This document shows positions 3,843-47,127 of a stretch of 64,000 bases of DNA, piece by piece. How positions within the stretch are numbered: the stretch's first letter is position 1; every line of letters begins with the position of its first letter. Under the pieces are notes generated by a model. The model was not told where the DNA came from and did no database searches. It saw nothing but the letters and a program-made list of their open reading frames with translations. Both the position numbers and the translations under genes were made by a program. Source of the DNA: Streptomyces sp. NBC_01460 (GTDB lineage Bacteria; Actinomycetota; Actinomycetes; Streptomycetales; Streptomycetaceae); NCBI RefSeq assembly GCF_036227405.1, contig NZ_CP109473.1:3844001-3908000 (forward strand). Direction: 5' to 3'.

Positions 3843-3851
3843 CCCGCCTCC

Positions 3852-7170: not shown

Positions 7171-7198
7171 GCGGCAAGGGTAGGCGGCGGCCCGCCGC

Positions 7199-8128: not shown

Positions 8129-8249
8129 CTGCGTCTCCTCCGCGTCCTCGTCGCGCGCAGCACGCGCCGCACCCCCGATCCTCGCGCCAGTCGGGCGCTC
8201 CCGCCCGGCGAGCCGGGCCGCTGTCAGTGACGGGTGCAAGACTCGTTTC

Positions 8250-19938: not shown

Positions 19939-19981
19939 GAGCCGCCTTCGGGATTCGAACCCGAGACCTACGCATTACGAG
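19939..19981. other. attL: 3' part of tRNA-Thr (truncated tRNA copy)
   Basis: This stretch equals 47085-47127 base for base and covers the anticodon stem 3' side, T arm and acceptor 3' end of tRNA-Thr (minus strand). The 5' half of the tRNA is missing here: from 19982 the sequence diverges. It is the displaced original 3' end after integration. Confidence 0.9.
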
Positions 19982-23171: not shown

Positions 23172-23188
23172 CTTGACGTCCCCTCGGC

Positions 23189-25096
23189 TCACAGGCTCTT
23201 CACGACGAAGGGGGACTCGTGCTGTTCGAGGATCGCCACGAGGTTCGCCTTGGCAATGTCGTCGCCGAAGGCTGCGTCCTTAAGGAAGACAGTCACGTCC
23301 GCCTCAGGTTGCAGCTCGTCACGCCAAGAAATGATGCCCTTGGCAATCTCCTCCGAATTACCTGCATTAATTGAACCGGAGGGGGGAAGGCAGGCGAAGA
23401 GTAGGCCCCCGCCAGTCGCGAATACCTGGGTGCCGGCAAACACGCGCGATTCCACGGACGAAGCGAGATCGAGTCCTTGACTCAGCAGCAGCTCGAAAAG
23501 CACGTCCCATTCCGCACGGTCTTCACGGATGTTATCGATCTGCTCGAACGCTTGCTGCTCAAAATCTTGCCGGGAGGTATCCCAACGAACAATATTTCCT
23601 GCACCCAGCGAGAATGACCGAAAACCGGTGTCCGCCGTACTCGAAGTGCTGGCGGCCGCTTGAGAGGACGACCGCAAACGAGCACGCGTGATGTCCGCAA
23701 TCGTGGCGAAGTCACCGAACCCCGTCGGCTCCGGAAGCTGGGCAAGAATAAAGCGGCGGTCTCCAGCACCCTCAGAGTTGGACTTCAGTACCGCCTCACC
23801 CGTCGATCCAGATCCCGCAAAGAAATCCATGACAATATCTCCCGGATTGCTACCGATGCGGATCAGTAGACGCAGGAGATCCACAGGCTTGGGTGTATCA
23901 AAGATGGACTTTCTCCCAAATAGCACCTCCAATTCTCGGGCGGCATGCTGATTAAATGGCATGTCCGGGAGGATTGAGGGGGTTGTCATACCATCTTTAG
24001 CCTCAGAGCGGTACAGTTTCCGCATAGGGGTGGTGGCTGTGCCATTAACACCCCAATAAAGTCGCCCATCAGCCTGCAGTCGCTCCATTTCTTCCTGCGA
24101 ATGGCGCCAACAAGTGCCTTCGCGAGGGTAGACCACCTCTCCCGTATGCGGGTTAGTTAGGCCATAGTGGAGTGAAGCAACGTCGCGTCCCCCTTTGGCA
24201 TTAGCCGTCGTGTCAATTTTACGGAAGGCGCCTCGCGGATCCGGGCCACCCGGCTCACGAAAAACCTGATACTGCGCATCTGCCTTGGCCGTGCGCGGCA
24301 TGAGGTTGAAACGCTCTTCGGCTAGTGTTCGTGTTGAATTAGGCGCCAACCCCTTCCCATACACCAGGATATGATCGTGCACGGAGCCGACAGTTCGATC
24401 GTTGGGGGCCCCATCACGCTTCCGCCAGATCAGGTCGATGACAAAGCAATCGCCACCGAAGATCTCATCGCAAATAAGGCGAAGGTTGGCCACCTCGGTG
24501 GAATCGATAAAGATGAAAATTGCACCGTCTTCGCTTAGGAGCTGTCGAGCGAGGAAAAGGCGGGGATACATCATGTCCAGCCAGGCGCTGTGGTAACGCC
24601 CAGAGGTCTCGGAGTTGCTGCTCAGCCGTGTTCCATCTACGCCAGTCTGGCCTGTGAGCTCAAGGTAGTTCTGGACGCCGTCCTGGAAGCTATCCGGGTA
24701 GATGAAATCCTTTCCGGTGTTGTATGGCGGGTCAATGACGATGAGCTTGACCTGGTTTGCATAGCTCTTTTGCAGGAGCTTCAGGACCTCAAGATTATCG
24801 CCCTCGATCATGACATTCTGGGTGCTGTCCCAGCTCAACGATTCATCCGGGCGCGGCATGAGGGTCGCTGTGCTCGGCTTGAGGGCAATGCGGCGGGCGT
24901 TGCGCTTGCCGAACCAGGTCAGCCCGAACTTCTCGTCGCCGTCATCGGCGGCGTCGCCAAGCAGCTCGCGCAGCGCTTCAAAGTCAACCTTGCCCTCTGT
25001 GAAGGCAGACGGGAAGATCTTCCGGAGCTGTTCGAGGTTCTCCGCCACGAGGTCCTTGGAGTGGGTCTCCGGGTCCCCCGGCTCAACCGTGTGCAT
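23189..25096 (-). CDS. mod: Type III-like adenine-specific DNA methyltransferase (Mod)
   Basis: A 635-residue beta-class N6-adenine methylase. The catalytic motif DPPYNTGKDF (about residue 123) precedes the SAM-binding motif MDFFAGSGSTGEAVL (about 415), and the region between holds the target recognition domain. The N-terminus LRKIFPSAFTEGKVDFEALR is typical of type III Mod and related proteins. ATG 25096 has AGGG five bases upstream; GTG 25123 is an alternative. GC content dips to about 50-52 percent over the middle (roughly 23.6-24.6 kb) against about 62-63 percent in res, suggesting a swapped or foreign recognition domain. It should protect host DNA and guide Res. Confidence 0.9.
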   Translation of the reverse strand: MHTVEPGDPETHSKDLVAENLEQLRKIFPSAFTEGKVDFEALRELLGDAADDGDEKFGLTWFGKRNARRIALKPSTATLMPRPDESLSWDSTQNVMIEGDNLEVLKLLQKSYANQVKLIVIDPPYNTGKDFIYPDSFQDGVQNYLELTGQTGVDGTRLSSNSETSGRYHSAWLDMMYPRLFLARQLLSEDGAIFIFIDSTEVANLRLICDEIFGGDCFVIDLIWRKRDGAPNDRTVGSVHDHILVYGKGLAPNSTRTLAEERFNLMPRTAKADAQYQVFREPGGPDPRGAFRKIDTTANAKGGRDVASLHYGLTNPHTGEVVYPREGTCWRHSQEEMERLQADGRLYWGVNGTATTPMRKLYRSEAKDGMTTPSILPDMPFNQHAARELEVLFGRKSIFDTPKPVDLLRLLIRIGSNPGDIVMDFFAGSGSTGEAVLKSNSEGAGDRRFILAQLPEPTGFGDFATIADITRARLRSSSQAAASTSSTADTGFRSFSLGAGNIVRWDTSRQDFEQQAFEQIDNIREDRAEWDVLFELLLSQGLDLASSVESRVFAGTQVFATGGGLLFACLPPSGSINAGNSEEIAKGIISWRDELQPEADVTVFLKDAAFGDDIAKANLVAILEQHESPFVVKSL

Positions 25097-25187
25097 CGTC
25101 ACCCTGATCGTCCCCTGCTTCACTACGGCACCGTCCGGCTCACCCGGTGCCCTCTTCTTGACCGTGCTCTTCGTACCTGCTGCGTTA

Positions 25188-25958
25188 CTACGCCAGACGC
25201 AACTTATCGTGCGCCGCTGACAAAGCGATCCTCTTCACCTTGATCTGATCCTGTAGCTCGATCCTGCGAGGGATCTGCTTCTCTTTCTTGATCTGGGTGA
25301 CCAGCTTGTTGATCTCTGCCTCGAGTCGGCTGCTCTCCGTCAGGGCAGTCAGCTGGGTCTGTGACGCATCCAAGGTGCCCGCGAGCGCAAACTCTCCGAT
25401 CGCCGCAGCGACACGCAAGGCAACCGTGGAGGCCAGCCAACCCTCGTAGACCGTGCTGAGGTCGCTGCGCGGTTGTCGGTCGAGCGGCAGCGCGCTCAGG
25501 AAAGCATCGCCCACCGGCGCGGGGACGTCTCCGACGGAAGCGGTCACAGGCGGACTGTCCAATGTGACCTCATCGTTCCGACCATGTGACATGCGCTTGA
25601 GTGCAACCGAAACACGGGGTCCGGACTCCTGTTCGCTAACGAGCAGGATCGGGTATGGCACGGCTCGATGGAGGAGTTCTTCCATGCGAGTGAGCTTGGT
25701 TCCGGTCCGGGCCCGCAGAGTCATGACGTGGAGCTCTGGAATGCGCCGACTGCCATCCGGGGCCGTGTACGCAGGGATTCCCACGGCATCAGGGCGTATC
25801 GCGGCGGCCCAGCGCAGGGTGTCGATGCCATCCTGCAGCAACCGCCGATCAGCGGCGCTGAAGTCGGAGTGCGCCTGCAACTGAGTCTTGGGCACCCGGA
25901 CATCCACAGCGCAGTCGGCAGGCAGCCCAAGAGCGTCGACCACGTCGTCCGGAGTCAT
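25188..25958 (-). CDS. DUF4391 domain-containing protein
   Basis: A 256-residue protein. The N-terminal segment VDVRVPKTQLQAHSDFSAAD, then TLRWAAAIRPDAVGIPAY, resembles DUF4391. The middle has a beta-rich part (VPYPILLVSEQESGPRVSVALKR), and the C-terminal 60 residues are a charged coiled coil (LEAEINKLVTQIKKEKQIPR). Function is unknown; such proteins occur between a helicase and a methylase in defence operons, perhaps as an adaptor. ATG 25958 overlaps the helicase stop (ATGA), and the methylase follows about 90 bp downstream. No catalytic motif is visible. Confidence 0.8.
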   Translation of the reverse strand: MTPDDVVDALGLPADCAVDVRVPKTQLQAHSDFSAADRRLLQDGIDTLRWAAAIRPDAVGIPAYTAPDGSRRIPELHVMTLRARTGTKLTRMEELLHRAVPYPILLVSEQESGPRVSVALKRMSHGRNDEVTLDSPPVTASVGDVPAPVGDAFLSALPLDRQPRSDLSTVYEGWLASTVALRVAAAIGEFALAGTLDASQTQLTALTESSRLEAEINKLVTQIKKEKQIPRRIELQDQIKVKRIALSAAHDKLRLA

Positions 25959-28900
25959 CGCTGGGCTTCTTGGTCGTCGTGTGTGGCGGGTCCGACAAGT
26001 TCGGCGTCGACACTGGGCAAAACGGCGAGAAAGGCGAGTACTTCGAAGTCATTGGTCCCGGCGAAGCCTCCTGCGGCAGCGGCCTGGGTGCCGTCCAGGC
26101 TGAACAGGCTGGCAACCGCGCGCTCTTCCTCCTTGCCAGTGATGGAGCGTACAGCGGCAGCAAGGGCCTTCCGGGCTACCCCCATGTCGGCGCCGCGCCG
26201 GGTCCGGGCGTCGAACAGCGCGGTGAGCCCCGGGTCAACCTGGCCCTGCTCGGCACTGACCCTGCGCACCCGGTCGAGGATGCGCTTGGTCTGGGTATGG
26301 CTGAGCTGCACCACCCCCTCCTCCCCGACGTGGATGAGGTAGTGAGGGGCAAGTGGGTCGCCGGCCTGCACGGCCCGATCGGCAGCCTGGCCTTCGGCAC
26401 GTAGGCAGAAGATCAGTCCGGGTGGGACGTCACCATCGGCGTCCGCGACCGCGTGAACTCCGAGTGGCTCCGCATCCAGCTCGCCGGGGTGTCGCTTAGC
26501 GTAATCGGCGAGGTCGATGCGCAGATCGGTGAGGGTGAGGTCAGCGATGGACACACCGGTCGACAGGTCCTCAAGGTCGAGGACGGAGTCCTGGAGCTTG
26601 AGGAGTTGTGCGCGCCGGTATTCGAGATCGTTCATCGGGTCGCCGACACTGGTCTCGATGACGTTCTCTTCGCCGGTGGCGGAGATGTCGAGGAGCACCA
26701 TGCGGCCCGTGACTCGCTGCTCGAGGCCGATGTATTCCTCCAGGTCCATCTGCGGCCAGAAGTTGACGAGCTGGATCCGAGCGCTGCGCGAACCGAGGCG
26801 GTCGATGCGGCCGAACCGCTGGATGATACGCACCGGGTTCCAGTGGATGTCGTAGTTCGCGAGCCAGTCGCAGTCCTGCAGATTTTGGCCCTCGGAGATG
26901 CAGTCCGTGGCAATGAGCAGGTCGAGCTCGCCTTCTCCAGCCAGGTCGTCCGGGCGTTGCTTCGAGCGCGGGGAGAACGCAGAGAGGATGCCGGGAAGAT
27001 CGCGGCGCAGCTTGAGCGTGGTGCGGTTATTCCCGGATCCCGTCACCAAGCCAGCCTCGACGCCGAGTTCGGCCCGCGCCCATTCGGCGAGCTCTTCATA
27101 CAGATAGGCGGCGGTGTCCGCGAAAGCAGTGAACACGATGGCCTTGCGATTGCCCGGGTTGACGGGGTTGCGAACCTTGTCCGCGATCAGCTGCTTAAGG
27201 TGGCCTAGTTTCGCGTCACGCTCTGGTATCACCTGCTCGGCCCGGTACAGCATCGCGGAGAGGCGCTCATGGTCCTCCAGGAGGTCCTGGCGCCAGCGGA
27301 TCAAGTCCATGTCCGCGATGAGAACCCTGATCTTGCCACCACCGATCGCCAGCTCGTCCGAGCGCAGGTCGTCGCGCTCCTCCTCGTCGAGAGAGTCAGA
27401 GCGGTAGTAGGTCTCGTGGCGGTCGATCGCACCCAGGTGCGCGTCGATGCGCTCCAGCTGCCGGCTCACCGTCAACCGGAAGGAGTGGACGGAACTCTCC
27501 AGCCGCTTGAGGATGTTCACCCTCATCAGGTTGACCAGGCTCTGCTCTCGGTCGGCCTGCTGGAAACTACCCTTGCCACTCTTCAGGCGAGTCGCGTACT
27601 TATCGGCGTACTCGGCCCGTTTGTCCGGTCGCAGGTAGTGCATGGGCGAGTACGCGGCCAGATTGAGCTTGCGGATCTGGTCGTTGAGTTCCCCGATGGC
27701 ACCGAAGTCACCCTGTGTGTCGATATCCGACTTCACGTTGAGCGGCGCGAGGCGCTCGGGGAAGGATCCAGTCTCGGCAGTGCCGTAGTACTTCTCGATG
27801 TGCTTGCGCGAGCGGGCGATGGTCAGCATGTCGAGCAGCGTGAAATAGTCGAAGCCCAGCATGTCCACGAGTAGGGCTGGGGTACGCCCCTCTGGGCCAA
27901 GTTCCTGCCACCGCTTGAACTGGCGCTGCGCGACGCGTACGGTCTCGGCGATGCTGGCGATACCGTACGGCGCCAAGGCCGTGTCGTCGTTCTCGGTAGC
28001 GAAGGCGATCTGGTTGCGCAAGTCCGCAAGCCGGTTGTTGACCGGGGTGGCCGAGAGCATCAGGATGCGGGTCTTCACGCCCTCCTGAATGATCTGGCGC
28101 ATCAGGCGGTCGTAGCGAGTCTCGCCGTTCTGCTTCGGAGAGTTGGCGTTGCGGAAGTTGTGCGACTCATCGATGACCACCAGGTCGTAGTTACCCCAGT
28201 TGACGTGCGCAAGGTCGATGTCGCCCGAGCTGCCGGACTCACGGGACAGATCGGTGTGGTTGAGCACGTCGTAATTGAAGCGATCTGCAGCGAGGAGGTT
28301 TCGGCGGTCGTTCGCCGTGTACATCGTCCAGTTGTCTCGCAGCCGCTTCGGGCAGAGTACTAGCACCCGGTCGTTGCGCAGCTCGTGGTACTTGATCACG
28401 GCGAGCGCCTCGAAGGTTTTCCCCAGGCCGACGCTGTCCGCAATGATGCAGCCGCCGTAGCGATCCAGCTTGTCGATCGCACCGATGACGCCGTCCCGCT
28501 GGAACTTGTACAGCTTTCCCCACACCACGGTGTCGTGGATGCCGGTCTTCGCATCGATGACCGTGTCCTCGTCCAGCTCCCCGCCAGCAGCGCTAAACAG
28601 ATGGTGGAGCATGAGGTGGTAAATGCGCTCCGGGTCGCGATAGCGCCCGAGGGCACGCATCTGCTCCAGCAGCGGGCCCGCTTCAAGAGAAGCGGGCGTG
28701 CTCTCCCACATCGCCTCGAAGAGTGCAGGAGCGAGAGCGGCCGCCTCGCTCTCGTTGTCGGAGCGCAGGATCGACGTGTACGGATTACCAGGGGCCAGGC
28801 CGAGGCCGGCACGATCGAAGCCGAAAGAGCCCTGGGCCAGCGAAATCACTTCACCCGAACCCGCGCGGGCAACCAGAACACCCTGGGGAAGAGCGTGGAA

Positions 28901-29212
28901 CGCCGCATGCCGCATCTCGGCCCGCCGAGCCAGCCACTCGGCGCACGACGCAGCAAGGTAGCGGCTCGACAGGCGGTTGCGGGCAGCGCGATCAAGTTCG
29001 CCGCCCAGCAGGTGCAGATCGGCGCCTGCGCCCGGAAGCAGAAGTCGAGCCTGTTCCAGCTTGGCCAGCTCGTCGCGGAGCTCCTCGAATGCGTACACAG
29101 AGAAGGTCGACGAGGCGAGGTCCACAGCCCCGCCTGGTCTCAAACTCGGACGTACCGCGTCAATCAAGCGGTCGCTTCCTTTGTTACTTACGACCTTCAA
29201 CGCATCCCCCAT
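25955..29212 (-). CDS. SNF2-like helicase with N-terminal PLD-like domain (anti-phage type)
   Basis: About 1085 residues. The N-terminal 170 residues (DLASSTFSVYAFEELRDEL onward) look like the phospholipase D-like domain of anti-phage helicases, but I see no HKD motif. SF2 motifs follow: IIADSVGLGKTFEA (Walker A, about 255), VVIDESHNFRN (DESH), LMLSATPVNN, then ATDCISEGQNLQDC and RIIQRFGRIDRLGS (motif VI, about 805). The spacing resembles Rad54/RapA-type translocases. ATG 29212 or GTG 29230 may start it; neither has a strong ribosome site. First gene of the operon helicase-DUF4391-mod-res, probably a restriction-like defence system needing DNA translocation. Confidence 0.85.
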   Translation of the reverse strand: MGDALKVVSNKGSDRLIDAVRPSLRPGGAVDLASSTFSVYAFEELRDELAKLEQARLLLPGAGADLHLLGGELDRAARNRLSSRYLAASCAEWLARRAEMRHAAFHALPQGVLVARAGSGEVISLAQGSFGFDRAGLGLAPGNPYTSILRSDNESEAAALAPALFEAMWESTPASLEAGPLLEQMRALGRYRDPERIYHLMLHHLFSAAGGELDEDTVIDAKTGIHDTVVWGKLYKFQRDGVIGAIDKLDRYGGCIIADSVGLGKTFEALAVIKYHELRNDRVLVLCPKRLRDNWTMYTANDRRNLLAADRFNYDVLNHTDLSRESGSSGDIDLAHVNWGNYDLVVIDESHNFRNANSPKQNGETRYDRLMRQIIQEGVKTRILMLSATPVNNRLADLRNQIAFATENDDTALAPYGIASIAETVRVAQRQFKRWQELGPEGRTPALLVDMLGFDYFTLLDMLTIARSRKHIEKYYGTAETGSFPERLAPLNVKSDIDTQGDFGAIGELNDQIRKLNLAAYSPMHYLRPDKRAEYADKYATRLKSGKGSFQQADREQSLVNLMRVNILKRLESSVHSFRLTVSRQLERIDAHLGAIDRHETYYRSDSLDEEERDDLRSDELAIGGGKIRVLIADMDLIRWRQDLLEDHERLSAMLYRAEQVIPERDAKLGHLKQLIADKVRNPVNPGNRKAIVFTAFADTAAYLYEELAEWARAELGVEAGLVTGSGNNRTTLKLRRDLPGILSAFSPRSKQRPDDLAGEGELDLLIATDCISEGQNLQDCDWLANYDIHWNPVRIIQRFGRIDRLGSRSARIQLVNFWPQMDLEEYIGLEQRVTGRMVLLDISATGEENVIETSVGDPMNDLEYRRAQLLKLQDSVLDLEDLSTGVSIADLTLTDLRIDLADYAKRHPGELDAEPLGVHAVADADGDVPPGLIFCLRAEGQAADRAVQAGDPLAPHYLIHVGEEGVVQLSHTQTKRILDRVRRVSAEQGQVDPGLTALFDARTRRGADMGVARKALAAAVRSITGKEEERAVASLFSLDGTQAAAAGGFAGTNDFEVLAFLAVLPSVDAELVGPATHDDQEAQR

Positions 29213-29360: not shown

Positions 29361-29924
29361 ATGGGCGATCTCATCGGGGACTGGGCGACGCACATCACGA
29401 GGGCTAAGCTCGGCTACGCACTTCCACGGAGGTGGGCGCATACGCAGGGAGTGGCATTCCGCGCCGCCGAAGTAGGCCCGGCCCTCAACCTAGACGCTGG
29501 CCTTCTTGTAGCCGCCGCCACGCTGCATGACATTGGGTATGCGCCTCGCCTGGCGGTGACGGGGTTCCATCCGCTGGACGGAGCCCGGTTCCTTCGTGAC
29601 AAGCATGGCGCCGACGAGCGGCTGGTGCGGCTGGTCGCAAACCACTCGTTCGCACTGTTGGAGGCCGAGGAGCGGGGCCTGCGGGAGGAGCTCGCGGCCG
29701 AGTTCCCCTTGCTGGATGAGCCGCTGCTGGTGGACGCCCTCGTGTACTGCGACATGACCACCACGCCCGACGGCGACCGAACCACCGCGCAGGACCGGGT
29801 CGCGGAGATCCGCAGCCGCTACGGGGACGACAGCATGGTCGGGCGGTTCATCCGCCGGGCGGCACCGGAGATCTTTGCCTCCGTGGAGCGAGTGGAAGCC
29901 GCCCTGGCAGCTCACCCGAGATAG
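29361..29924 (+). CDS. HD-domain phosphohydrolase
   Basis: A 187-residue protein with an HD metal-binding set: RWAHTQGV (first His), AATLHDIGYAP (HD pair), and downstream FHPLDGARFL and LVANHS. HD enzymes hydrolyse nucleotide or other phosphate esters. ATG 29361 follows GGGAG at six bases; the frame from 29301 lacks one. It diverges from the helicase operon (148-bp gap) and its 3' end overlaps the converging NUDIX gene by 13 bp. It may belong to the nucleotide-chemistry cassette that follows; the substrate is unknown. Confidence 0.85.
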   Translation: MGDLIGDWATHITRAKLGYALPRRWAHTQGVAFRAAEVGPALNLDAGLLVAAATLHDIGYAPRLAVTGFHPLDGARFLRDKHGADERLVRLVANHSFALLEAEERGLREELAAEFPLLDEPLLVDALVYCDMTTTPDGDRTTAQDRVAEIRSRYGDDSMVGRFIRRAAPEIFASVERVEAALAAHPR

Positions 29925-30379
29925 GGGTAGGTGCCGGCGAGGTAGTCCCCGATCTGCTGGCGCATGCTCGGGTGGATGTCGTACTGGTCCAGGTCGGCCG
30001 GCTGGACGTAGCGGACGCCGTCGGCCTCGTCGTTGATCGTGGGTGCTCCGCCGACCGGGCGGCCGATGTAGCTGTTCTCGTACTGCTGGCGAATCTCGCC
30101 GTCGGTGTAGGCGACGATGTGGTTGGGGTTGGTGTAGACGCCGAGGAAGCCGGTGATCTCCGCGATGATGCCGGTCTCCTCCAGGCACTCACGCACCGCG
30201 CATTCGGCCGCGGTCTCGCCGATGTCCTGGGCTCCGCCGGGAAGCGCCCACTGGCCTGTATCGCGGCGGCGCTGGAGGAGTATGGCGCCGGTCTCGTCGA
30301 CGACGAGCAGGTTGCTCGCCGGGATGAGGGTGTTCGCCTTCGGGGCGGTGGGGTCGTTGTAGTACTCAGTCCTGCCCAT
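29912..30379 (-). CDS. NUDIX hydrolase (first copy)
   Basis: A 155-residue protein with a full NUDIX box: GGAQDIGETAAECAVRECLEETGI (about residues 46-69; Gly, paired Glu and REcLEEtG all present), so it should cleave a nucleoside diphosphate linked to another group. ATG 30379 has AGGAGAGGA upstream, and it starts 14 bases before the XRE gene ends, so the two are translationally coupled. The substrate is not predictable. Confidence 0.9.
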   Translation of the reverse strand: MGRTEYYNDPTAPKANTLIPASNLLVVDETGAILLQRRRDTGQWALPGGAQDIGETAAECAVRECLEETGIIAEITGFLGVYTNPNHIVAYTDGEIRQQYENSYIGRPVGGAPTINDEADGVRYVQPADLDQYDIHPSMRQQIGDYLAGTYPYLG

Positions 30380-31139
30380 GGCCGGCAGTCCTCTCCTGGT
30401 CAGGTGCCCACGACCGCGCTGCGGCCCAGACGGCGTCGAAGCTCTGAGCGTAGTTGTCGAACCAGCCAGTGCCGTCAGTCCTCTTGAGGTGGAAGAGAGG
30501 GTTGGCGCTGGCCGGTTGGCCCCAGACGTGGGGGTTGACGAGCAGGTTGTCGTCGTAACGGAACATGGACGTGTAGAGCGTGGTGTCGTGGAGCCGCACG
30601 GCACACCCTGTCTCGCCGAGCAGCGGGCGGTAATACGTCAGTGAGGCGCGGATCTTCGCGGCGAGGGTGTCGCCGATTCCCTCCTCGCGGCCCCGGAGCG
30701 CGACTGCCTGCCCGTCCGGGTCGCCGAAGCACAGGCGTACCCGCACCCCTTCTGCCGCACGCTCGGAAAGCATCTTGGCGACATGGGGGTTGGACTGAGC
30801 GAAGAAGGTGCCGGAGAAGACCAGGACGGCGATCTCCTTCCGGGCCTCTCGCAGCAGTGTGAGCCAGACGTCCCTGGGCACACTGGCCCGGTTCGGGTGG
30901 GTGCCGACGAGCTCGGAACCTGAGCCGTCCTGTGGCCGACCGAGTCTGTTGGATGGTTCAGGCCACAGGAAGGTCTCCTCCACACGCAGGTGTCGCGCGA
31001 CGCGGAATCGATGCCGGGCGTGGGGGATGCGCCCGCCGAGCCACCGGCTCACGGTTTTGGGGTCTACCTCGCAGACCTCGGCCAGCGAGTCGGGCGATAC
31101 GCCACGTTGGCCGAGCACAGTGCGCAGTCGGTCGTTCAC
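30366..31139 (-). CDS. XRE-type regulator with C-terminal DUF5919-like (PLD-fold) domain
   Basis: A 257-residue protein. Residues 1-60 form a helix-turn-helix (SLAEVCEVDPKTVSRWLGGR). The rest (WLTLLREARKEIAVLVFSG, VRVRLCFGDPDG, DTTLYTSMFRYDDNLLVNPH) resembles the DUF5919/phospholipase D-like fold used as a ligand sensor by some actinomycete regulators. It starts with GTG 31139 and is coupled to the NUDIX gene. It is divergent (95-bp gap) from HAD and the downstream plus-strand cassette, so it is the natural candidate for controlling both arms. The ligand is unknown. Confidence 0.85.
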   Translation of the reverse strand: MNDRLRTVLGQRGVSPDSLAEVCEVDPKTVSRWLGGRIPHARHRFRVARHLRVEETFLWPEPSNRLGRPQDGSGSELVGTHPNRASVPRDVWLTLLREARKEIAVLVFSGTFFAQSNPHVAKMLSERAAEGVRVRLCFGDPDGQAVALRGREEGIGDTLAAKIRASLTYYRPLLGETGCAVRLHDTTLYTSMFRYDDNLLVNPHVWGQPASANPLFHLKRTDGTGWFDNYAQSFDAVWAAARSWAPDQERTAGHGQD

Positions 31140-31234
31140 AGAGCCAATCGAATCGCCACACAGCGTGATCGCGCAAGAACGTTTTGGGACGCTACGGCTG
31201 AAACGCGCCCCCTGAGTCTGTCTACGCTGGCGGC

Positions 31235-31927
31235 ATGGAGCTCTTCGTCCTGTGGGACATCGACCACACCCTCATCGAGAACGCGGGGGTGAGCAAAGAA
31301 ATCTACGCCGCCGCCTTCGCCGCCCTTTCGGGCCGCGAGCCAGCGGGGCCGGCGCGAACTGAGGGGCGTACGGATCGACTGATCATGAGCGACATGTTCA
31401 TCCGCGAAGAGCTCCCCGTACCCGACTGGCACTTCGTCGAGACCGCACTCGCCCGGGCGGGGGAAGTGCGCCTGGATGAACTGAGCAGGCGCGGGACCGC
31501 CCTGCCCGGTGTCCATGAGGCGTTGAAGGCCGCTTCCACCCAGAGCGGGTGGACCTCCTCCGTCCTCACCGGCAACATCGCCGCCAACGCCCGAGTGAAG
31601 CTTGCCGCGTTCGGCCTGGATTCCCTGCTGGATCTGTCAGTGGGGGCATACGGGGCGGACGCCGAACTCCGCCCCGATCTGGTCGCTGTCGCCCGCGAGC
31701 GCGTGCTCCGGCTTCGTGGCGTTTCTGCCGACGTTCCCACCGTCCTCGTCGGAGACACCCCTCGTGATGTGGAGGCGGCTCTCACGACGGGGTCCCGGAT
31801 CCTCGCGGTCGCCTCCGGCATCCATGCTCCGCAGGAGCTGACCGCTGCCGGCGCAGCCGAAGTCCTGCCCGACCTGTCGGACACGAAGCGTCTCCTCGGC
31901 ATCCTGGGGTCTTTCGCAGGCCGCTGA
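31235..31927 (+). CDS. HAD-superfamily hydrolase
   Basis: A 230-residue phosphatase of the HAD type with a helical cap. Motif I is LWDIDHTLIE (nucleophile and acid Asp), motif II is SVLTGN, and motif IV is VLVGDTPRDVEAA, with an Arg/Lys-containing segment between. Such enzymes remove phosphate from small metabolites, often nucleotides. ATG 31235 has no clear ribosome site, only TACGCT six bases before the final spacer, so the message may be leaderless. First gene on the plus-strand arm of the cassette; 104 bp separate it from the radical SAM gene. Confidence 0.88.
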   Translation: MELFVLWDIDHTLIENAGVSKEIYAAAFAALSGREPAGPARTEGRTDRLIMSDMFIREELPVPDWHFVETALARAGEVRLDELSRRGTALPGVHEALKAASTQSGWTSSVLTGNIAANARVKLAAFGLDSLLDLSVGAYGADAELRPDLVAVARERVLRLRGVSADVPTVLVGDTPRDVEAALTTGSRILAVASGIHAPQELTAAGAAEVLPDLSDTKRLLGILGSFAGR

Positions 31928-32031
31928 AACGTCCCAGGACGTCCTCGGTCCGTCCCTGAACGCGGTGCCGAGGTCCCGGGGCAGAAGGCCACTATCAGGC
32001 TCCCAACAGGCAGTCAGCCGAAGGAGCCGAT

Positions 32032-32934
32032 GTGATCGGGGAAGTCACCGGGATCAGGAAGATCCGAATGCTGTACCTGCAGCTGCTCTACCGCTGCAAC
32101 TTCACGTGCCTGCACTGTTTCCACGGCAAGCGGCTCCAGTACGCCGACGTGTTCACCGTCGACGAAGCGACAAGCCTTCTCACCCTGATGCGGGACGAGT
32201 ACGGCACGGAGGCAGTGACCCTGCTCGGTGGGGAGCCGTTCGTTCACCGCCACCTCGCGCAGGTCGTCCTCCACGCCAATGTGGAGCTGGGCCAGCGGGT
32301 CGAGATCTGCACCAACGGGTACCGGATCGAGCGGCGCCTGACCGAGATCGCTCCGTACCTGGACATGCTCAGGGTCTCGCTGGAGGGAGTCGGATCGACC
32401 AACGACGGCATCCGCAGGCAAGGCAGCTACCAGAGCGCCTTGAACTCGCTCAGCCTTGCCCGGGACCTCGGCGTTCCGACGGGCGCCACCATGACCATCA
32501 CTTCGCGGAACATCGACGAGGTCCTCACTCTCGCCGGCGTGCTGGCGCGGCTCGGGGTCCGACAACTCAAGCTCCACCACCTGCGGCCGGTCGGCAACGC
32601 CGCTGACCACCCCGAGCTGCTGGTCACCGCCTCCTCCGCGTACGGCCGGCTCCGCGAAGAGCTCGCGTCTGCCGATCTGCCCCTGGAGGTGATCGTCGAC
32701 GAGGACCTCTCCGAGCACGGCGCCCCGCAGGTGTGCACGCCGTCCGACGGACCTCGCGAGATCGACCGCATCGAGGCCGACCCACGGGGTGCGCTGACCA
32801 TGTCCTGCAAGGCGGTCGGCAAGGACTCGCACGCCTTCTGGTACGAGAAGGCCGCCGGACGCATAGTCCACAAGCCCTCGGAATCCGACGAACTCACTCT
32901 CGCGGTACCGGACGTGGTGTACTCCCGTGCCTGA
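32032..32934 (+). CDS. Radical SAM protein
   Basis: A 300-residue radical SAM enzyme. CNFTCLHC (Cys at about 23, 27, 30) binds the 4Fe-4S cluster, and LLGGEPF and ICTNG are the SAM-contact motifs of the fold. The C-terminal region has two more cysteines (VCTPSDG and SCKAVGKDSHAF) but no full SPASM pattern. GTG 32032 follows AAGGAG. Its stop overlaps the P-loop kinase start by 8 bp. A radical SAM gene adjacent to a thymidylate-kinase-like gene recalls viperin-type antiviral loci, but viperin signatures are missing, so the reaction is unknown. Confidence 0.88.
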   Translation: MIGEVTGIRKIRMLYLQLLYRCNFTCLHCFHGKRLQYADVFTVDEATSLLTLMRDEYGTEAVTLLGGEPFVHRHLAQVVLHANVELGQRVEICTNGYRIERRLTEIAPYLDMLRVSLEGVGSTNDGIRRQGSYQSALNSLSLARDLGVPTGATMTITSRNIDEVLTLAGVLARLGVRQLKLHHLRPVGNAADHPELLVTASSAYGRLREELASADLPLEVIVDEDLSEHGAPQVCTPSDGPREIDRIEADPRGALTMSCKAVGKDSHAFWYEKAAGRIVHKPSESDELTLAVPDVVYSRA

Positions 32935-33568
32935 GCGCCCGCGCTTCGAGAGCCTGGAGGGATTACGCGGCACCGGCAAGTCCACCCTGGCACCGATGCT
33001 CGCCGCTGCCCGACAGGCCGTCCTCGTCCCCACCGTCCCATCCCTCTACCAGCCCCTCAGACACGCGGTCGATGAACGGACCAACGTAGAGGCGCGGATG
33101 TGCCTCTACCTCTCCGCGCTGTTCACCGCGGCCGAGGAGATCCAGCACCATCTCGACGCCGGCACCTCGGTCGTCGTCGAGAGCTACTTCGCCCGGTGCC
33201 TCGCCACCCACCGAGGTCTGGGTGCCCGGCTCGGTGTCACCCTGCCGAACCTGCTGCCGACACCCGTCACGTACCACCTGGTCTGCCAAGACGCCGAAAG
33301 ACAGCGCCGCCTCGCCGGACGGAACAAACCCGCCTCGCGATGGGACGTGCTGGTCGAGTCCGCTTCGGACCGAGTGATGGACGCCTACGTCTCATTCCCG
33401 ATGCATCACGTCGACACGACCGGGCGGGGGCCCGACGAGGTCCTGCGCGTGATCATGGACACCGATAGACAAGGAGCGCACTCCCATGCAGACACAGAGC
33501 CTGTGGGAGCACACCCTCACCTTCTTCCCCCAGTTCCTCGCAGCCTTGCGGGAACGCGTCGCCCCTGA
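32927..33568 (+). CDS. P-loop kinase, thymidylate kinase-like, with a TTA codon in the P-loop
   Basis: A 213-residue protein. The nucleotide-binding loop is LEGLRGTGKST (residues about 10-20). GTSVVVESYFARCLA resembles the DRY/E-S-Y region of thymidylate kinases, and a lid-like QRRLAGRNK follows. The Leu at residue 13 is coded by TTA (32963-32965), the rarest Streptomyces codon, read only by the bldA tRNA. GTG 32927 overlaps the radical SAM stop. The last 27 codons overlap the methyltransferase start (33486). The tail past about residue 185 looks non-domain. It probably phosphorylates a nucleotide or analogue made by its neighbours. Confidence 0.82.
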   Translation: MPERPRFESLEGLRGTGKSTLAPMLAAARQAVLVPTVPSLYQPLRHAVDERTNVEARMCLYLSALFTAAEEIQHHLDAGTSVVVESYFARCLATHRGLGARLGVTLPNLLPTPVTYHLVCQDAERQRRLAGRNKPASRWDVLVESASDRVMDAYVSFPMHHVDTTGRGPDEVLRVIMDTDRQGAHSHADTEPVGAHPHLLPPVPRSLAGTRRP

Positions 33569-34148
33569 CGCCACGGTCGCGGTAATCGGCGCGAGTGACG
33601 GCAAGTTCGTCCTGCCCCTCGCCGCCGCCGGATACCACGTCATCGCAGTCGAACGCGATGCGGTCGCCCTCCACGGGGGCGATGTGCATCTCCCGGGTGA
33701 CAGCCAGGCGCACGCGCTGGGCCTGATCGACCGACTGAAGCTCGAAGAACTCCACGAACGCGTAGAGGTTGTTGAGGGGGACTTCCTCGAAAACACCCCC
33801 CTGGGCCGGCAGTGCGCGGCGGTCTGGACGAGCTGCTCCTGGCACTACAGTGCCAACCACCACCGCCCGCTCGCCGAGTTCGTCGACCGCATGCAGCGCC
33901 TGGTCCGTCCGGGCGGTGTGTTCGGTGCGGAGTTCATGATGCCCGTCGAAAGACGCCACCACATGACCGAGCACTACACCTCACCCGAGCGCCTGCTCCC
34001 TCGCTTCCTCAGCGACTGGGAAGTCCTGCTCACCCTGCGCACGAACGAGTTCACGGAACGGCCCCACGTCGGCCAGCCGAACGACCACACCCACCGCATG
34101 GGCCTGCTCATGGCAGCCCGTACGTCCACCCTCACTGACCACTTCTGA
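33486..34148 (+). CDS. Class I SAM-dependent methyltransferase
   Basis: A 220-residue methyltransferase. Motif I is VAVIGASDGKFVLPLAAAGY, the acidic residue after beta 2 is in VIAVERDA, and RLVRPGGVFGAEF is the motif before strand 5. ATG 33486 is preceded by AAGGAG, giving an unusually long 83-bp overlap with the kinase gene. It lies between that kinase and the CYTH gene in a run of plus-strand genes with small gaps. The substrate is unknown; a small molecule is more likely than DNA, as no NPPY-type motif is present. Confidence 0.87.
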   Translation: MQTQSLWEHTLTFFPQFLAALRERVAPDATVAVIGASDGKFVLPLAAAGYHVIAVERDAVALHGGDVHLPGDSQAHALGLIDRLKLEELHERVEVVEGDFLENTPLGRQCAAVWTSCSWHYSANHHRPLAEFVDRMQRLVRPGGVFGAEFMMPVERRHHMTEHYTSPERLLPRFLSDWEVLLTLRTNEFTERPHVGQPNDHTHRMGLLMAARTSTLTDHF

Positions 34149-34159
34149 GAGAAGGACAC

Positions 34160-34747
34160 ATGAAGCACGAGTACGAGGCGAAGTTCCTGGCCGTCGACGC
34201 CGACGGCCTCCAGGCGAAGCTGGCCGCCCTCGGCGCCGACCGGGCGCTCCCCCGCACACTCCTCACCCGCAAGATCTTCGAGAACGACTCTCTGGACGGC
34301 GGGGCCTGGATCCGGCTGCGTGACGAGGGCACCCGCTCGACGCTCACGCTCAAGCAGGTCACCGACGCTACGACGATCGACGGCACCAAGGAGATCGAGA
34401 CCGAGGTGTCCGACCTGCACGCCATGGCCGACATCCTGCGCCAGGTCGGCCTCACGGAAGTCCGGTACCAGGAGAACTACCGCGAGGAGTGGCGCCTGGG
34501 TGAAGTCGCCTTCGACTTCGACACCTGGCCTGACCTCCCCACCTTCCTGGAGATCGAAGGGCCCGATGAGACATCGGTCCGTCAGGCCGCCGCCCTGCTG
34601 GATCTCGACTACTCCGAGGCCCGGTTCGGCAGCGTCGACGAGATCTACAAGAGCGAGTCCGGCCGTGACATCCTCGCCGAACCCACCCTCCTGTTCTCTG
34701 ACGCCGAAAAGCACGAGGACGCTGCCGCGACGCCCCAGAGCCTGTGA
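34160..34747 (+). CDS. CYTH-domain protein (class IV adenylate cyclase/triphosphatase-like)
   Basis: A 195-residue CYTH protein with the signature HEYEAKF (ExExK), further strands IRLRDEGTRSTLTLKQ, KEIETEV, FDFDTWPDLPTFLEIEGP, and basic/acidic tunnel residues. The family includes thiamine triphosphatases, inorganic triphosphatases and AC-IV cyclases, all binding triphosphate compounds with divalent metal. AGAAGG lies upstream of ATG 34160. It follows the methyltransferase by 11 bp. It might act on a triphosphate product of the cassette. Confidence 0.88.
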   Translation: MKHEYEAKFLAVDADGLQAKLAALGADRALPRTLLTRKIFENDSLDGGAWIRLRDEGTRSTLTLKQVTDATTIDGTKEIETEVSDLHAMADILRQVGLTEVRYQENYREEWRLGEVAFDFDTWPDLPTFLEIEGPDETSVRQAAALLDLDYSEARFGSVDEIYKSESGRDILAEPTLLFSDAEKHEDAAATPQSL

Positions 34748-34766
34748 GTCCGGGGCGGACGAGCGA

Positions 34767-35141
34767 ATGCTGACGGAACCCTCCTGGCAGCACAGAGTGA
34801 TCCCCGGAATCATCGAATTCGCCCGCGGAGGGCTGCCCACGCCCGCGTACACCGACGACGGCAACGAGTGGGTCGACGGAATGTGCTGGCTCTACTGCGG
34901 GCAGCAGTGGACTCGTGTCCTGTGGGTTGGCCCCGCCACGGTCGCCGGCGCTCAGGCGCCGATGTACGCCTGCGGCCCGTGCATCCGCGAGCTGCAGGAA
35001 CGGGTCTGGCAGTCCCTTCTCTGTGAGGACCGGCCGGTCCACTCCGTCCAGTCGGGCACAGCCACCGCAGTGGCAGCCCCAACCTCCACCGGGAGGGCCG
35101 GAGAGCACCGGGGCCCGAGCAGGTTCCTGCACCGCCGCTGA
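34767..35141 (+). CDS. Small protein with CxxC pair, unknown function
   Basis: A 124-residue protein with WVDGMCWLYCGQQW, then MYACGPCIRELQERVW. Four cysteines in two CxxxC/CxxC groups may bind zinc. The last 30 residues are polar and probably disordered. It starts at ATG 34767, 19 bp after the CYTH gene, in the same direction. I do not recognise a family. The cysteine spacing and conserved Trp residues support a real gene. Confidence 0.65.
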   Translation: MLTEPSWQHRVIPGIIEFARGGLPTPAYTDDGNEWVDGMCWLYCGQQWTRVLWVGPATVAGAQAPMYACGPCIRELQERVWQSLLCEDRPVHSVQSGTATAVAAPTSTGRAGEHRGPSRFLHRR

Positions 35142-35304
35142 GCTCCCGTCCTGGTTACGTGGGTCGTCCGCCGTCCCCTGCGGCATGAGCCCGTGACCAG
35201 GGCGGGTCTTGGCGCGCCTTCAACAAACGCTTTCGAGGCGGGCCGCACCACTCGACCCGCCGACACCAACTTCCACCCATCCTGACTGTCCGGGAGGAGC
35301 AGAC

Positions 35305-35718
35305 ATGACACAGCAGACCACGGACGAGCGGCCGGGCATCGCCGCCGCCATCGTCGTTCACGAGGGCCGCGTTCTCATGGTCCGCCGCCGGGTGAGCGAG
35401 GGGCAGCTCTCCTGGCAGTTCCCCGCTGGCGAGGTCGAGCCCGGCGAGGCACGTGAGGCCGCTGCCGTACGGGAGACCCAGGAGGAGACAGGGCTGACCG
35501 TGGAGGCGATCCAGCTGCTCGGCGAGCGCGTGCACCCGAAGACGGGCCGACTGATGTCGTACACCGCCTGCCGAATCCTGAGCGGCACAGCTCACGTCGC
35601 CGATACAGAGGAGCTGGCCGAGATGGCGTGGGTTTCCCACGGCGACCTCCCGGAGTACGTGCCGTACGGGCTGTTCGAGCCGGTGCATGCCTACCTTGAC
35701 TTGGCTCTGTCTTCCTGA
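35305..35718 (+). CDS. NUDIX hydrolase (second copy)
   Basis: A 137-residue protein with the NUDIX box GEVEPGEAREAAAVRETQEETGL (about residues 45-67). The small size and the WQFPAGEVEPGE context resemble 8-oxo-dGTP/ADP-ribose pyrophosphohydrolases. GGGAGGAG precedes ATG 35305 at five bases. It is the last intact gene of the plus-strand cassette. A fragment of a FAD-oxidase gene follows. The substrate is unknown. Confidence 0.9.
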   Translation: MTQQTTDERPGIAAAIVVHEGRVLMVRRRVSEGQLSWQFPAGEVEPGEAREAAAVRETQEETGLTVEAIQLLGERVHPKTGRLMSYTACRILSGTAHVADTEELAEMAWVSHGDLPEYVPYGLFEPVHAYLDLALSS

Positions 35719-37509: not shown

Positions 37510-39228
37510 CTACAGCTGCCGACGACGGTTGCTCTCCCCCGGAACGACGGCCGGCCCTACCGGCATGGCCATGTGTTCCCCGTGGCCATGCCTCTGGATC
37601 CCTGAGAGCGTCGAGCAGCGGCGGGCGGCTTCAGCGCGGGGGTTGGGGGCAGAGCTGTGGCTGGTGTGCTGGATGCGGGTGATCAGGACGCGGGCGGGCT
37701 GGCGAGCGCTCGTGAGTTCGCGCTGAGCAGCGGCTTCCTTGAGGAGCTGGTGGGGCTTGTGACCGCCGGCTTCAGCATCAGCCAGGACGGTGGCGAGGGC
37801 CGGCCAGACGGGGTCGGTGAGCACGCGGTCGGCGTGGTCGGGGATGGCAGCCCGGACGTCATGGGCCAGAGTTCGGCTGGCCTGGTCGCTCGGCTGGCGA
37901 GCGGCGAGGGTGTCGATGACCGGGACGAGGGCGTGGTCGGCGGCGGCGTGTAGATGGTGCAGTGCCTGACGGGCGGCTTCGGCCTGGTTGGCGTGGTTCT
38001 TCGCCTCGTGCCAGCGGGCGGCGACGATCGTGGCCCAGACGAGGGCGGCGAGGAAGGCGGCGAAGGCGCTGCCGTCGGGGCCGACGGCGGTGTGGGCGAT
38101 GTCGCGGGCCGCGCGGCGCAGGGTGTGGGCGGCCTCGTCCTCGGCTCGGATCTGGGAGCGCTGGGCGCGGCCGAATGTCCCTACCGCGGTTCGAAGTTCG
38201 GCTCGGAAGTGATCAGGCGCCCTCTGGGCGGTGGCCTCGATGAGTTCGCCGAGCGCCGTGATGTGGGCCTGGGCGTAGGTGTCGTCCGCCATGCCCTGGT
38301 GAAGGGTGTCGAGGGCGTCGGTGGCGTGGTGCCAGGGAGTGGTGGGGCGCTGTCGGCGTGCGGTGGGGTGTTCCTCGGGTGCAGTGTTTTCCAGGCGGGC
38401 CTTGAGCTTGGGCAGGGTGAGGTCGGGGGCGATCTTTCCGCCGGGGTGGAAGATCTGTTCGCCGTTCTTGTTGAGGTCTCCGGGGCGGCCGGCGGCGTAG
38501 CCGAGGAGGTCTCCGGACGGTCCGCGGCGGGGTTTGATCGCGATGCCGTCGGCTTCGAGGTAGGCGAGGAGTTCTTCCGTTTTGCTGGCATGGGGGATGG
38601 CGGCGCGGATGCGGTTCTGGAGCCAGTCGCGGCTGGTCTGTTCCCAGCCGAGGCGCTGGGCCTTGTGCATCTCGGCCTGCGTGGGGCGCTTTCCGGCGGT
38701 GCGGTCGCCCTTCTTCAGTTGGCGCAGGCTGTAGTCGGTCTCGATCTTGCGGCAGGCGTCGCCGACGCGGACGCCACTGCCGTGGAGCTTCGGGCGGCGC
38801 CCGTCCTCGCGCACGGTGGTGGCAAGAATGTGGATGTGGTCGTCCGCGTGGCGCACGGCGATCCACCGGCAGCCGAGGTCGTCGCCGGGCGGGGCGATGC
38901 CGGCGGCCTCGACGATGCGCTGGGCGATGTCGGCCCACTCGGCATCGGAGAGGTGCCGGTCCCCGGGGGCCGCACGGACGGGGCAGTGCCAGACGTGGTC
39001 GGTGATCTTCTTCCCGAACTCGCTGTTCCGGATGTGCACCGGCTCGTCGAGGTGGTGGGCGAGCTGGGTGAGGGAGGCGTCCGGGTTTCGTCCAGGGTCG
39101 GGCATGCCGAACATCGCGAAGCCAGCGACGATGTGCGGGTCGAGGTGCTCGTCGTGGCGGCCGGGCCCGTAGAGGTAGGCAAGCAGACCGCGGGTGTTGG
39201 CTCCGGCCGGTTTGATGGCGGCTATCAC
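37510..39228 (-). CDS. Relaxase/mobilization nuclease (MobA-like)
   Basis: A 572-residue relaxase. The N-terminal part has candidate tyrosines in GLLAYLYGPGRHD, and the metal-binding His motif is AVRHADDHIHILATTV (HxDxHxH type, about residue 125). A long helical C-terminal region follows. It should nick at oriT and lead the DNA strand into a recipient. ATG 39228 overlaps the stop of the MobC gene (ATGA). No FtsK-type or VirB4-type translocation gene is present in the element, so transfer presumably uses another element's machinery. Confidence 0.88.
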   Translation of the reverse strand: MIAAIKPAGANTRGLLAYLYGPGRHDEHLDPHIVAGFAMFGMPDPGRNPDASLTQLAHHLDEPVHIRNSEFGKKITDHVWHCPVRAAPGDRHLSDAEWADIAQRIVEAAGIAPPGDDLGCRWIAVRHADDHIHILATTVREDGRRPKLHGSGVRVGDACRKIETDYSLRQLKKGDRTAGKRPTQAEMHKAQRLGWEQTSRDWLQNRIRAAIPHASKTEELLAYLEADGIAIKPRRGPSGDLLGYAAGRPGDLNKNGEQIFHPGGKIAPDLTLPKLKARLENTAPEEHPTARRQRPTTPWHHATDALDTLHQGMADDTYAQAHITALGELIEATAQRAPDHFRAELRTAVGTFGRAQRSQIRAEDEAAHTLRRAARDIAHTAVGPDGSAFAAFLAALVWATIVAARWHEAKNHANQAEAARQALHHLHAAADHALVPVIDTLAARQPSDQASRTLAHDVRAAIPDHADRVLTDPVWPALATVLADAEAGGHKPHQLLKEAAAQRELTSARQPARVLITRIQHTSHSSAPNPRAEAARRCSTLSGIQRHGHGEHMAMPVGPAVVPGESNRRRQL

Positions 39229-39959
39229 GCGGCCTGCTCTTTCTCCGCCTCGGCGGGTTCACGCAGGGCCTGGGCGATCAGGTCCAGCAGGTGGTGGAGC
39301 TCGTCGAGACGGTGACGTACGTCGGGCGGGGTGGAGTCGCTGTTGAGGGCTCGGGCGATCTGGTTGACGTTGACGCCGATCCGGTTGAGTTCACGCAGCA
39401 CCTGGGCGCGGAACATGTGGGTGCGACGACGGTCCTCGGACAGCGGCAGGTTCGCCGTGAACCGACCGGCGACGAAGGCGAGGGTGACGTCTGCGGTGAA
39501 GCCGGATACCCCTTTGTAGCCGTGCTCGGCTGCGGCCTCCTGGAGCGCGGCGTGCTCGTCGCCGGTGAAGAGCAGGGGTCCGACACGGACGGTCCGCTTG
39601 GTGCCGGTGAAGCGGCGAATCGTCGGCTGCACGCTCTGCGATGCTCGTTCGCCGGCGGTGGGTTCAGTGGCATGTGCGGGGCGAAGGATCTGCTGCTGAA
39701 CGGCGTAAAGCTCCTCCTGGTCGGGGCTGCCCTCGGTCCCGACCTCCCGGCCAGGCGCCCCTTGGCGCTGGGCCGTCTCCGCCACCCCCGGGGCGGAGAT
39801 CCCCGAAGACCGGCCTTGAGTCGGACTCGGAGTACTACTGGCTCCGCCCGGGGCCGTCCTCCCAAATGCCCGACGCAGGCGGGACAGCAGCGTAGGGGAC
39901 TGTGCTGAGGCAGGCGGCTCAGCGGGGGTGTCGTCAGGTAGGTGCTGGCTGTGCTGCAT
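39225..39959 (-). CDS. MobC-like relaxosome protein
   Basis: A 244-residue protein with a disordered Pro/Ser-rich N-terminal half. The C-terminal half begins KRTVRVGPLLFTGDEHAAL and contains the MobC hallmark LNRIGVNVNQIARALNS, then a helical tail. MobC proteins bind oriT and help the relaxase open the strands. ATG 39959 follows AGGAG at eight bases. It is coupled to the relaxase gene downstream. Confidence 0.87.
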   Translation of the reverse strand: MQHSQHLPDDTPAEPPASAQSPTLLSRLRRAFGRTAPGGASSTPSPTQGRSSGISAPGVAETAQRQGAPGREVGTEGSPDQEELYAVQQQILRPAHATEPTAGERASQSVQPTIRRFTGTKRTVRVGPLLFTGDEHAALQEAAAEHGYKGVSGFTADVTLAFVAGRFTANLPLSEDRRRTHMFRAQVLRELNRIGVNVNQIARALNSDSTPPDVRHRLDELHHLLDLIAQALREPAEAEKEQAA

Positions 39960-40109
39960 GGAAGATGCTCCTGATACGGCTCGGCGAAATTGACCTGGGC
40001 GCCCCACTGGCATGGGCCCGCGTGTTGTCCACAGGTGTGGAAATCCGCGGCGCGACCGGCGGGTGCTCGGCTGACCGGAAGGGTTCCGGTCACCCGAGCA
40101 CCCGAGACG

Positions 40110-47084: not shown

Positions 47085-47127
47085 GAGCCGCCTTCGGGAT
47101 TCGAACCCGAGACCTACGCATTACGAG
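47085..47127. other. attR: 43-bp integration repeat inside tRNA-Thr
   Basis: Identical to 19939-19981. It runs from one base past the tRNA 3' end to within the anticodon loop, so crossover in this block keeps the tRNA whole. Sequence diverges from 47128 on, which is the chromosomal 5' half of the tRNA. Confidence 0.9.

Follow-up and report, generated by a model that had tools for sequence, protein, structure and literature searches.

Within a 64,000-nucleotide stretch of Streptomyces sp. NBC_01460 (contig NZ_CP109473.1, positions 3,844,001 to 3,908,000; hereafter the window), an integrated mobile element carries a cassette of ten genes that is conserved and not a chance pile-up. The cassette has three parts and is not one ten-gene unit: a control module encoding an HD-domain hydrolase, a NUDIX hydrolase, an XRE regulator and a HAD phosphatase, linked to a core of four genes (radical S-adenosylmethionine [SAM] enzyme, kinase, methyltransferase and CYTH protein), and two optional 3' genes. 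Our main new observation is a fixed repeat, built of phased ACGTCC half-sites, that stands ahead of changing cargo. The conserved enzyme set probably yields an altered nucleotide, and we give an even chance to the cassette being a mobile, switch-controlled small-molecule pathway with a modified nucleotide as its most likely product.

All ten genes encode the domain families that the original prediction, made from the sequence alone, had assigned to them (Table 1), the small cysteine-rich protein having no Pfam family and the DUF5919 match of the XRE regulator falling just below the Pfam cut-off (E = 1e-4; 22.6 bits versus 23.5). The set had also been described as almost gap-free. This holds for the HD, NUDIX and XRE genes, which overlap by 13-14 bp, and for the run from the radical SAM to the CYTH gene (radical SAM and kinase overlap by 8 bp, kinase and methyltransferase by 83 bp, and 11 bp then lead to CYTH). 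It does not hold elsewhere: gaps of 95 bp between XRE and HAD and of 104 bp between HAD and radical SAM, both containing predicted regulatory repeats, and of 163 bp ahead of the second NUDIX gene interrupt the cassette.

Patterns built from an alignment of nine relatives, run on a genome collection, placed the radical SAM gene at 68 loci, mostly in Streptomyces, with others in Nocardia, further actinomycetes and one Chitinophagaceae metagenome-assembled genome (MAG). It was carried by 19 of 246 sampled Streptomyces genomes and by 5 of 394 genomes of a draw from the class. In a family count over 72 loci, window included, the radical SAM gene was present at 70 (L015 among them having merely a distant radical SAM family), the methyltransferase at 66, CYTH and the kinase at 65 each, NUDIX at 62, XRE at 61, HD at 59, HAD at 57 and the small cysteine-rich protein at 28. 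This count dropped L011-L014, which share contigs with L036, L043, L082 and L076. It also missed L080, on which a gene caller trained with high-GC genes failed; the L080 core was seen otherwise. Most loci have the same order, HD(+) NUDIX(-) XRE(-) HAD(+) radical SAM(+) kinase(+) methyltransferase(+) CYTH(+), which persists while the flanking genes vary. The proposal of a conserved gene set travelling as island cargo is thus borne out, and co-occurrence over 72 loci is not what a chance pile-up, or genes scattered through unrelated contexts, would leave.

The notion of ten genes acting as one system did not stand. Many genomes carry the HD-NUDIX-XRE trio and no core, and the two final genes are optional, the second NUDIX gene lying downstream in 4 distinct loci beyond the window (L025, L027, L043 and L046). 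HAD is not beside the radical SAM gene in five Nocardia loci. Distant hosts (Nocardiopsis, Planosporangium, Catenulispora, Paractinoplanes, Gandjariella, Actinocrinis and a Chitinophagaceae MAG) retain the radical SAM gene with two or three of the kinase, methyltransferase and CYTH genes, often in altered order, and often lack the trio, other NUDIX or helix-turn-helix (HTH) genes being near some of them. We therefore take radical SAM, kinase, methyltransferase and CYTH as the core and assign the remainder to the control module.

Comparison of the eight conserved genes with up to six loci gave dN/dS values of 0.04-0.34 in 47 comparisons. Across the 37 loci with gene calls of at least 75% length for all eight (L011-L015, L078, L080 and L083 were excluded), pairwise distances of XRE, HAD, radical SAM, kinase, methyltransferase and CYTH correlated with r of 0.69-0.94, while the best of 500 permutations reached at most 0.45. 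Agreement was best between XRE and radical SAM (r 0.94); NUDIX gave r of 0.58-0.80.

Some loci depart from this plan. L058 (4237-9079) contains three XRE genes and a pair of NUDIX genes, all from the module family, suggestive of a duplicated control module, and a second CYTH gene with an HTH gene lies beside the core in L082 (5411-6959; Pfam 1.3e-21) and L076 (7872-9288). Aldo/keto reductase-like and cupin/JmjC-like genes, both recognized by eye, recur downstream of the cassette in L033, L035, L063, L071 and L114 (families f23, f38 and f39 of the 72-locus count, or alike by eye); this aldo/keto reductase family also follows HAD in L015.

Alignment of the gap before the radical SAM gene revealed a conserved block, AACGTCCcaGGACGTCC...CCGTCC...ACGCGGTgACG..GTCC, with no conserved reading frame in the aligned gap. 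We surveyed L016-L082 and the window for this repeat, grouping 7 distant cores apart. Allowing one mismatch, 60 of 61 close loci had the pair ACGTCC-N4-ACGTCC (10-bp phasing) at most 130 bp from the radical SAM start, and 55 had it exactly, versus dinucleotide-shuffle expectations of 0.17 and 0.01; in L062, the sole exception, the half-sites are spaced wider. An opposite-strand pair with at most one mismatch occupied the XRE-HAD gap in 45 of 60 loci (shuffles, 0.03), L038 being too short for this test. As background, 18 random stretches of relatives (342 kb) held 10 such pairs. The sequence AACGTCCNNNGACGTCC occurred 46 times in the 246 genomes, compared with 0 for a reversed control, and was present at 19 of their 20 radical SAM loci. 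The 46 places comprised 26 at the module (21 radical SAM loci and 5 with other cargo) and 20 elsewhere; a tblastn search over 3 kb at each of 15 of these 20 found no module, the remaining 5 being judged by coordinates, and one of the 20 (G250) shows the full canonical form. The window's own genome has nine exact operator pairs (reversed control, 1), one of them at the cassette. An operator pair upstream of a pyrR-like gene was absent from 14 relatives and was taken as chance.

In six genomes, the repeat stands between HAD and genes other than the core. Five of these (L116-L120) have a HAD-XRE-NUDIX-HD module that is 52-82% identical, and between its HAD gene and a different operon stands the repeat; the operon encodes phosphoketolase, enolase-like, HAD, methyltransferase-like (by eye), creatininase, PhyH and YrdC proteins, as well as a radical SAM-like protein (sub-threshold Pfam E of 0.013; CxxCxxC by eye). 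L015, whose host belongs to another family of the order, has the repeat between HAD and a gene that looks by eye like an aldo/keto reductase; a further copy adjoins the HD start, 0.7 kb ahead of a flavoprotein operon that includes two other radical SAM genes (Pfam). The core is missing from L114, where HAD is followed by the repeat (one mismatch) and then by the small cysteine-rich protein gene. Since the repeat is found both upstream of the radical SAM gene and between HAD and other cargo, the control module looks like a switch with exchangeable cargo. The L116 stretch 263-8563, with its matching stretches in L117-L120, is itself a putative biosynthetic cluster behind the same HAD gene and operator.

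The control module also has a life beyond this core. XRE genes at at least 75% identity were found in 22 places in the 246 genomes, 20 of them adjoining the radical SAM gene of the core, and relatives at 62-70% and 34-49% identity occur without it. Among 18 core-less loci examined, a NUDIX gene was present in 17, HD in 15 and HAD in 8. An XRE-NUDIX-HD set, its XRE being 39.5% identical, is also present on a Streptomyces plasmid of 18 kb that has FtsK, DUF2637 and GntR genes. An HD-Nudix-XRE cluster (mdp-nud-xre) in actinomycete integrative and conjugative elements (AICEs) has already been published, as has the NUDIX protein Pif of pSAM2 (both PMC3218068), and gene content and att sites show the same three gene types lying together within an integrative or conjugative element in the window. 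The label of an undescribed system thus fails for the trio. It survives for the core operon and the repeat with exchangeable cargo, which are apparently new: we did not find them in the literature searched, most subscription journals being outside its scope, nor did we find any mention of DUF5919 there.

We then considered what chemistry the core might carry out. The CxxxCxxC motif of the radical SAM enzyme is invariant in 28 sequences, as is C259, and C93 is nearly so. A profile search gave BlsE (1.6e-20) and SkfB (4.7e-20) as its closest solved relatives, viperins coming next, and structural Z scores lay close together (SkfB, 26.1; BlsE, 25.1; viperin with CTP, 24.2). In a fold search of the enzyme's model against viral models, the named matches among the 50 listed were mostly phage radical SAM or Fe-S proteins; elsewhere, sequence relatives were found only in 2 plasmid records (29-31% identity over 61-63% of the query) and none among the phages or viral contigs searched. 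By model the enzyme is not a viperin, in line with the earlier statement that the viperin motif is not present: it scored 55.1 bits with NCBIfam NF038283 (cut-off 180) and 50 bits with the PADLOC pVip model PDLC02904. It scored 79 bits with PDLC02903; a 149-genome Actinomycetota background, which covers PDLC02904 alone, contained other, longer radical SAM frames scoring 74-85 bits in 13 genomes, and from their length (339-466 aa) and partial matches we infer that these are not viperins either. BlsE identity was likewise rejected (TIGR04466, 55.2 bits versus a cut-off of 400).

Thymidylate kinases accounted for all 50 structural matches listed for the kinase model. The protein has a P-loop and carries ESY at the position of DRY, a motif of thymidylate kinases, and scores 16 against a cut-off of 27 with the Pfam thymidylate kinase model. 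It also matches PDC-M51B (3.5e-20; PADLOC); the PDC-M51 candidate defence system was rejected, as the PDC-M51A matches of the same genome (4 places) all lie outside the window. For the CYTH protein, the best PDB match by profile was Saci_0718, a triphosphate tunnel metalloenzyme (4.4e-15; profile positions 47-139 aligned). Both Glu residues of its ExExK start are invariant in 19 sequences, the last position being Lys or Arg in 18 and Thr in L070.

The surroundings of the core offer further hints. L073 has cytidine deaminase and pyridoxal phosphate (PLP) decarboxylase genes within the core, and GreA/GreB-like genes, 29% identical to each other, lie beside the distant cores of L079 and L080; the search turned up none at the other loci it covered. 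Gre factors act on stalled RNA polymerase and rescue it, and a partner of this type would be in keeping with a transcription-stalling product. Taken together, the kinase fold, the BlsE/SkfB/viperin-like radical SAM enzyme and the thymidylate synthase-family, cytidine deaminase and Gre-like context suggest a nucleotide product as the best reading of the chemistry, and nucleotide and phosphoryl chemistry, which nearly all of the genes had been proposed to share, is the likeliest theme. In the Chitinophagaceae locus L080 (6359-11024), the core lies beside a cyclodipeptide synthase gene, an HTH gene and the GreA/GreB-like gene. In L138 (5127-13732), a 35% radical SAM relative is surrounded by thymidylate synthase-family, carbamoyltransferase, phosphotransferase, NUDIX and methyltransferase genes, a possible nucleoside cluster. 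On a plasmid of Streptomyces sp. NBC_01591, L203 (4006-8490) holds thymidylate synthase-family, B12-type radical SAM, 32% methyltransferase relative and HAD genes in a row that is unannotated in the plasmid record.

In the pathway we favor, the XRE protein would bind the ACGTCC repeat and switch the operon; the radical SAM enzyme would modify a nucleoside or nucleotide, the kinase would convert a monophosphate to a diphosphate, the methyltransferase would decorate the nucleotide product, and the CYTH protein would bind or cleave a triphosphate. NUDIX, HD and HAD enzymes could clear the product or damaged nucleotides. The compound would probably be used in conflict, either inside the cell against phages or plasmids or outside it as a nucleoside antibiotic, and elsewhere the same switch is joined to other cargo genes.

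One version of this explanation, the idea put forward in the original prediction, is a viperin-like intracellular defence in which entry of phage or plasmid DNA elicits a chain-terminating or toxic nucleotide while host RNA polymerase is spared, in some lineages through a Gre-like transcript-cleavage factor. The viperin-like radical SAM fold and the Gre-like genes by two distant cores fit such a system, as do the restriction operon in the window and the type IIG, DUF262-type, MzaB-like or cytosine methyltransferase genes that flank other loci. However, the enzyme fails the viperin models, Gre-like genes are confined to two of the loci searched, and the defence neighborhood is loose. Hand-picked left-flank genes matched PADLOC at 1e-15 in 4 of 10 cases; a little-selected second ten (the large left gene of further loci, not a random draw), to which we give more weight, did so in 2 of 10. 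Left-flank genes (87, thinned by hand from 118 candidates) matched 153 PADLOC families at that threshold versus 40 for 87 random genes, a crude tally, since the total length of the two sets differs and a single protein may count for many families. The predicted position next to defence genes is true of the window; at other loci such neighbors are common in places without being constant, and the flank data support life in variable islands over a strict tie to defence. We regard the viperin-like version as unlikely. An exported nucleoside antibiotic or signal compound made by a small cluster, with HAD, NUDIX and HD for self-protection, would account for the radical SAM profile being nearest BlsE of blasticidin S and for distant radical SAM and methyltransferase relatives that cluster with carbamoyltransferase, phosphotransferase, B12 radical SAM and thymidylate synthase-family genes, but a transporter or resistance gene is never a constant partner in the 72 loci and the core comprises four enzymes only; this is possible, if on balance somewhat unlikely.

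The published AICE trio and Pif (PMC3218068), together with the trio on the 18-kb plasmid with FtsK, raise the alternative that the module, like Pif, serves element maintenance or conjugal exclusion and that the core is freight with no link to it. The relaxase gene of the window type is present in only 20 of 72 loci, though. Nor is the core random freight, given that the XRE distances track those of the radical SAM gene and that the core is preceded by the shared repeat; we find this alternative quite doubtful. Least probable to us is a radical SAM pathway modifying a cofactor or a ribosomally synthesized and post-translationally modified peptide. SkfB does give the top structural Z score, and the cyclodipeptide synthase gene near the L080 core points the same way. 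Against it, the kinase and CYTH proteins do not fit, there is no conserved short open reading frame (ORF) in the HAD-radical SAM gap, where the block consists of repeats (other gaps were not searched for tiny ORFs), and the enzyme lacks a SPASM-type cysteine set, because C259 and, nearly, C93 are its only conserved cysteines besides CxxxCxxC.

Several points also weigh against the switch-controlled nucleotide pathway. HD distances agree weakly with those of the other genes (r 0.37-0.49, several not above permutations), and distance agreement in general may partly stem from shared host ancestry. The repeat copy in the XRE-HAD gap is degenerate in the window, and the 7 distant cores all lack the repeat ahead of the radical SAM gene, so the operator is not inseparable from the core; we infer the XRE protein as its binder from co-occurrence only. 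The radical SAM enzyme lies about equally near the peptide enzyme SkfB, and the kinase fails the curated dTMP kinase model TIGR00041 (16.7 versus 83.25 bits).

The element itself is 27.2 kb long and inserted at tRNA-Thr in a genome of 8.8 Mb. We consider it an integrated mobile element because of its 43-bp tRNA-Thr repeats, integrase, relaxase and MobC, and DUF2637/DUF3631 proteins (Pfam); GC content is about 0.75 outside and 0.58-0.72 across 20-47 kb of the window. The restriction-like operon that had been noted beside the cassette is type III by PADLOC and forms the left part of the element, with the cassette to its right. A DUF4391 gene lies between its methyltransferase and helicase genes and could be a standard component of this restriction variant.

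Table 1. Features of the cassette and its host element (window coordinates)
Feature	Position	Strand	Evidence
Left att repeat of element, 43 bp	19939-19981	.	perfect direct repeat with 47085-47127
Type III restriction operon, cassette neighbor	20190-29125	-	PADLOC and Pfam
REase_III	20190-23171	-	PADLOC
MTase_III	23189-25096	-	PADLOC
DUF4391 protein	25188-25958	-	Pfam DUF4391 1.7e-45
HKD+Snf2 helicase	25955-29125	-	PADLOC
HD-domain hydrolase (control module)	29361-29924	+	Pfam HD 5.7e-10
NUDIX hydrolase 1 (control module)	29912-30379	-	Pfam NUDIX 3.6e-19
XRE regulator, DUF5919-like domain (control module)	30366-31139	-	Pfam HTH; DUF5919 below cut-off
Degenerate phased-repeat copy, XRE-HAD gap	31177-31193	-	alignment of 18 loci
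HAD phosphatase	31235-31927	+	Pfam HAD 2.8e-11
Candidate operator	31928-31976	+	ACGTCC at 31929 and 31939, third half-site at 31950, further conserved GTCC
Radical SAM enzyme (core)	32032-32934	+	Pfam 5.2e-20; model pLDDT 91.7
Kinase, thymidylate-kinase fold (core)	32927-33568	+	model pLDDT 85.4; structural matches
Class I SAM methyltransferase (core)	33486-34148	+	Pfam Methyltransf_25/11 below cut-off; conserved
CYTH/triphosphate tunnel protein (core)	34160-34747	+	Pfam CYTH 4.1e-10
Small cysteine-rich protein (optional)	34767-35141	+	28/72 loci; no Pfam family
NUDIX hydrolase 2 (optional)	35305-35718	+	Pfam NUDIX 6.7e-22; longer frame from 35209
Relaxase, MobA/VirD2-type	37510-39228	-	Pfam 1.9e-8
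MobC	39225-40013	-	Pfam 5.5e-9
Tyrosine integrase of element	43948-45567	+	Pfam Phage_integrase 5e-18
Right att repeat, 3' end of tRNA-Thr(cgt) (47085-47159, -)	47085-47127	.	repeat match

If the proposed pathway is correct, a defined four-enzyme set and its operator could be assayed for a new nucleotide, the phased ACGTCC repeats would be a DNA signature for finding further cargo types, and the HD-Nudix-XRE cluster of actinomycete elements would be a switch for exchangeable chemistry and not solely an exclusion module. A bolder extension, which we offer as speculation with the chances against it, is an actinobacterial plug-in platform (XRE/DUF5919-like, NUDIX, HD and HAD genes with a fixed operator) into which mobile elements would swap unrelated pathways; the product in the window would be a new methylated nucleotide acting as a block on parasite or competitor polymerases, the host's own RNA polymerase being rescued by Gre-like factors in some lineages, and this would be a chemical immunity separate from viperin.

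Known systems resemble the cassette in parts. It differs from pVip with a nucleotide kinase in falling below the viperin cut-off and in adding a methyltransferase, a CYTH protein and the switch module, and from BlsE, the cytosylglucuronate decarboxylase of blasticidin S, in failing that model and lacking blasticidin genes. The kinase is like thymidylate kinase in fold and P-loop and unlike it in its score with the curated model and in having ESY for DRY. The CYTH protein resembles Saci_0718 in its profile match and ExExK Glu pair, although the alignment is confined to part of the profile, and its activity is predicted. Finally, to judge by gene types, the control module is like mdp-nud-xre of AICEs (PMC3218068), with the same three gene types clustered in mobile elements; unlike that cluster, it is joined here by HAD and a radical SAM core with a shared operator.

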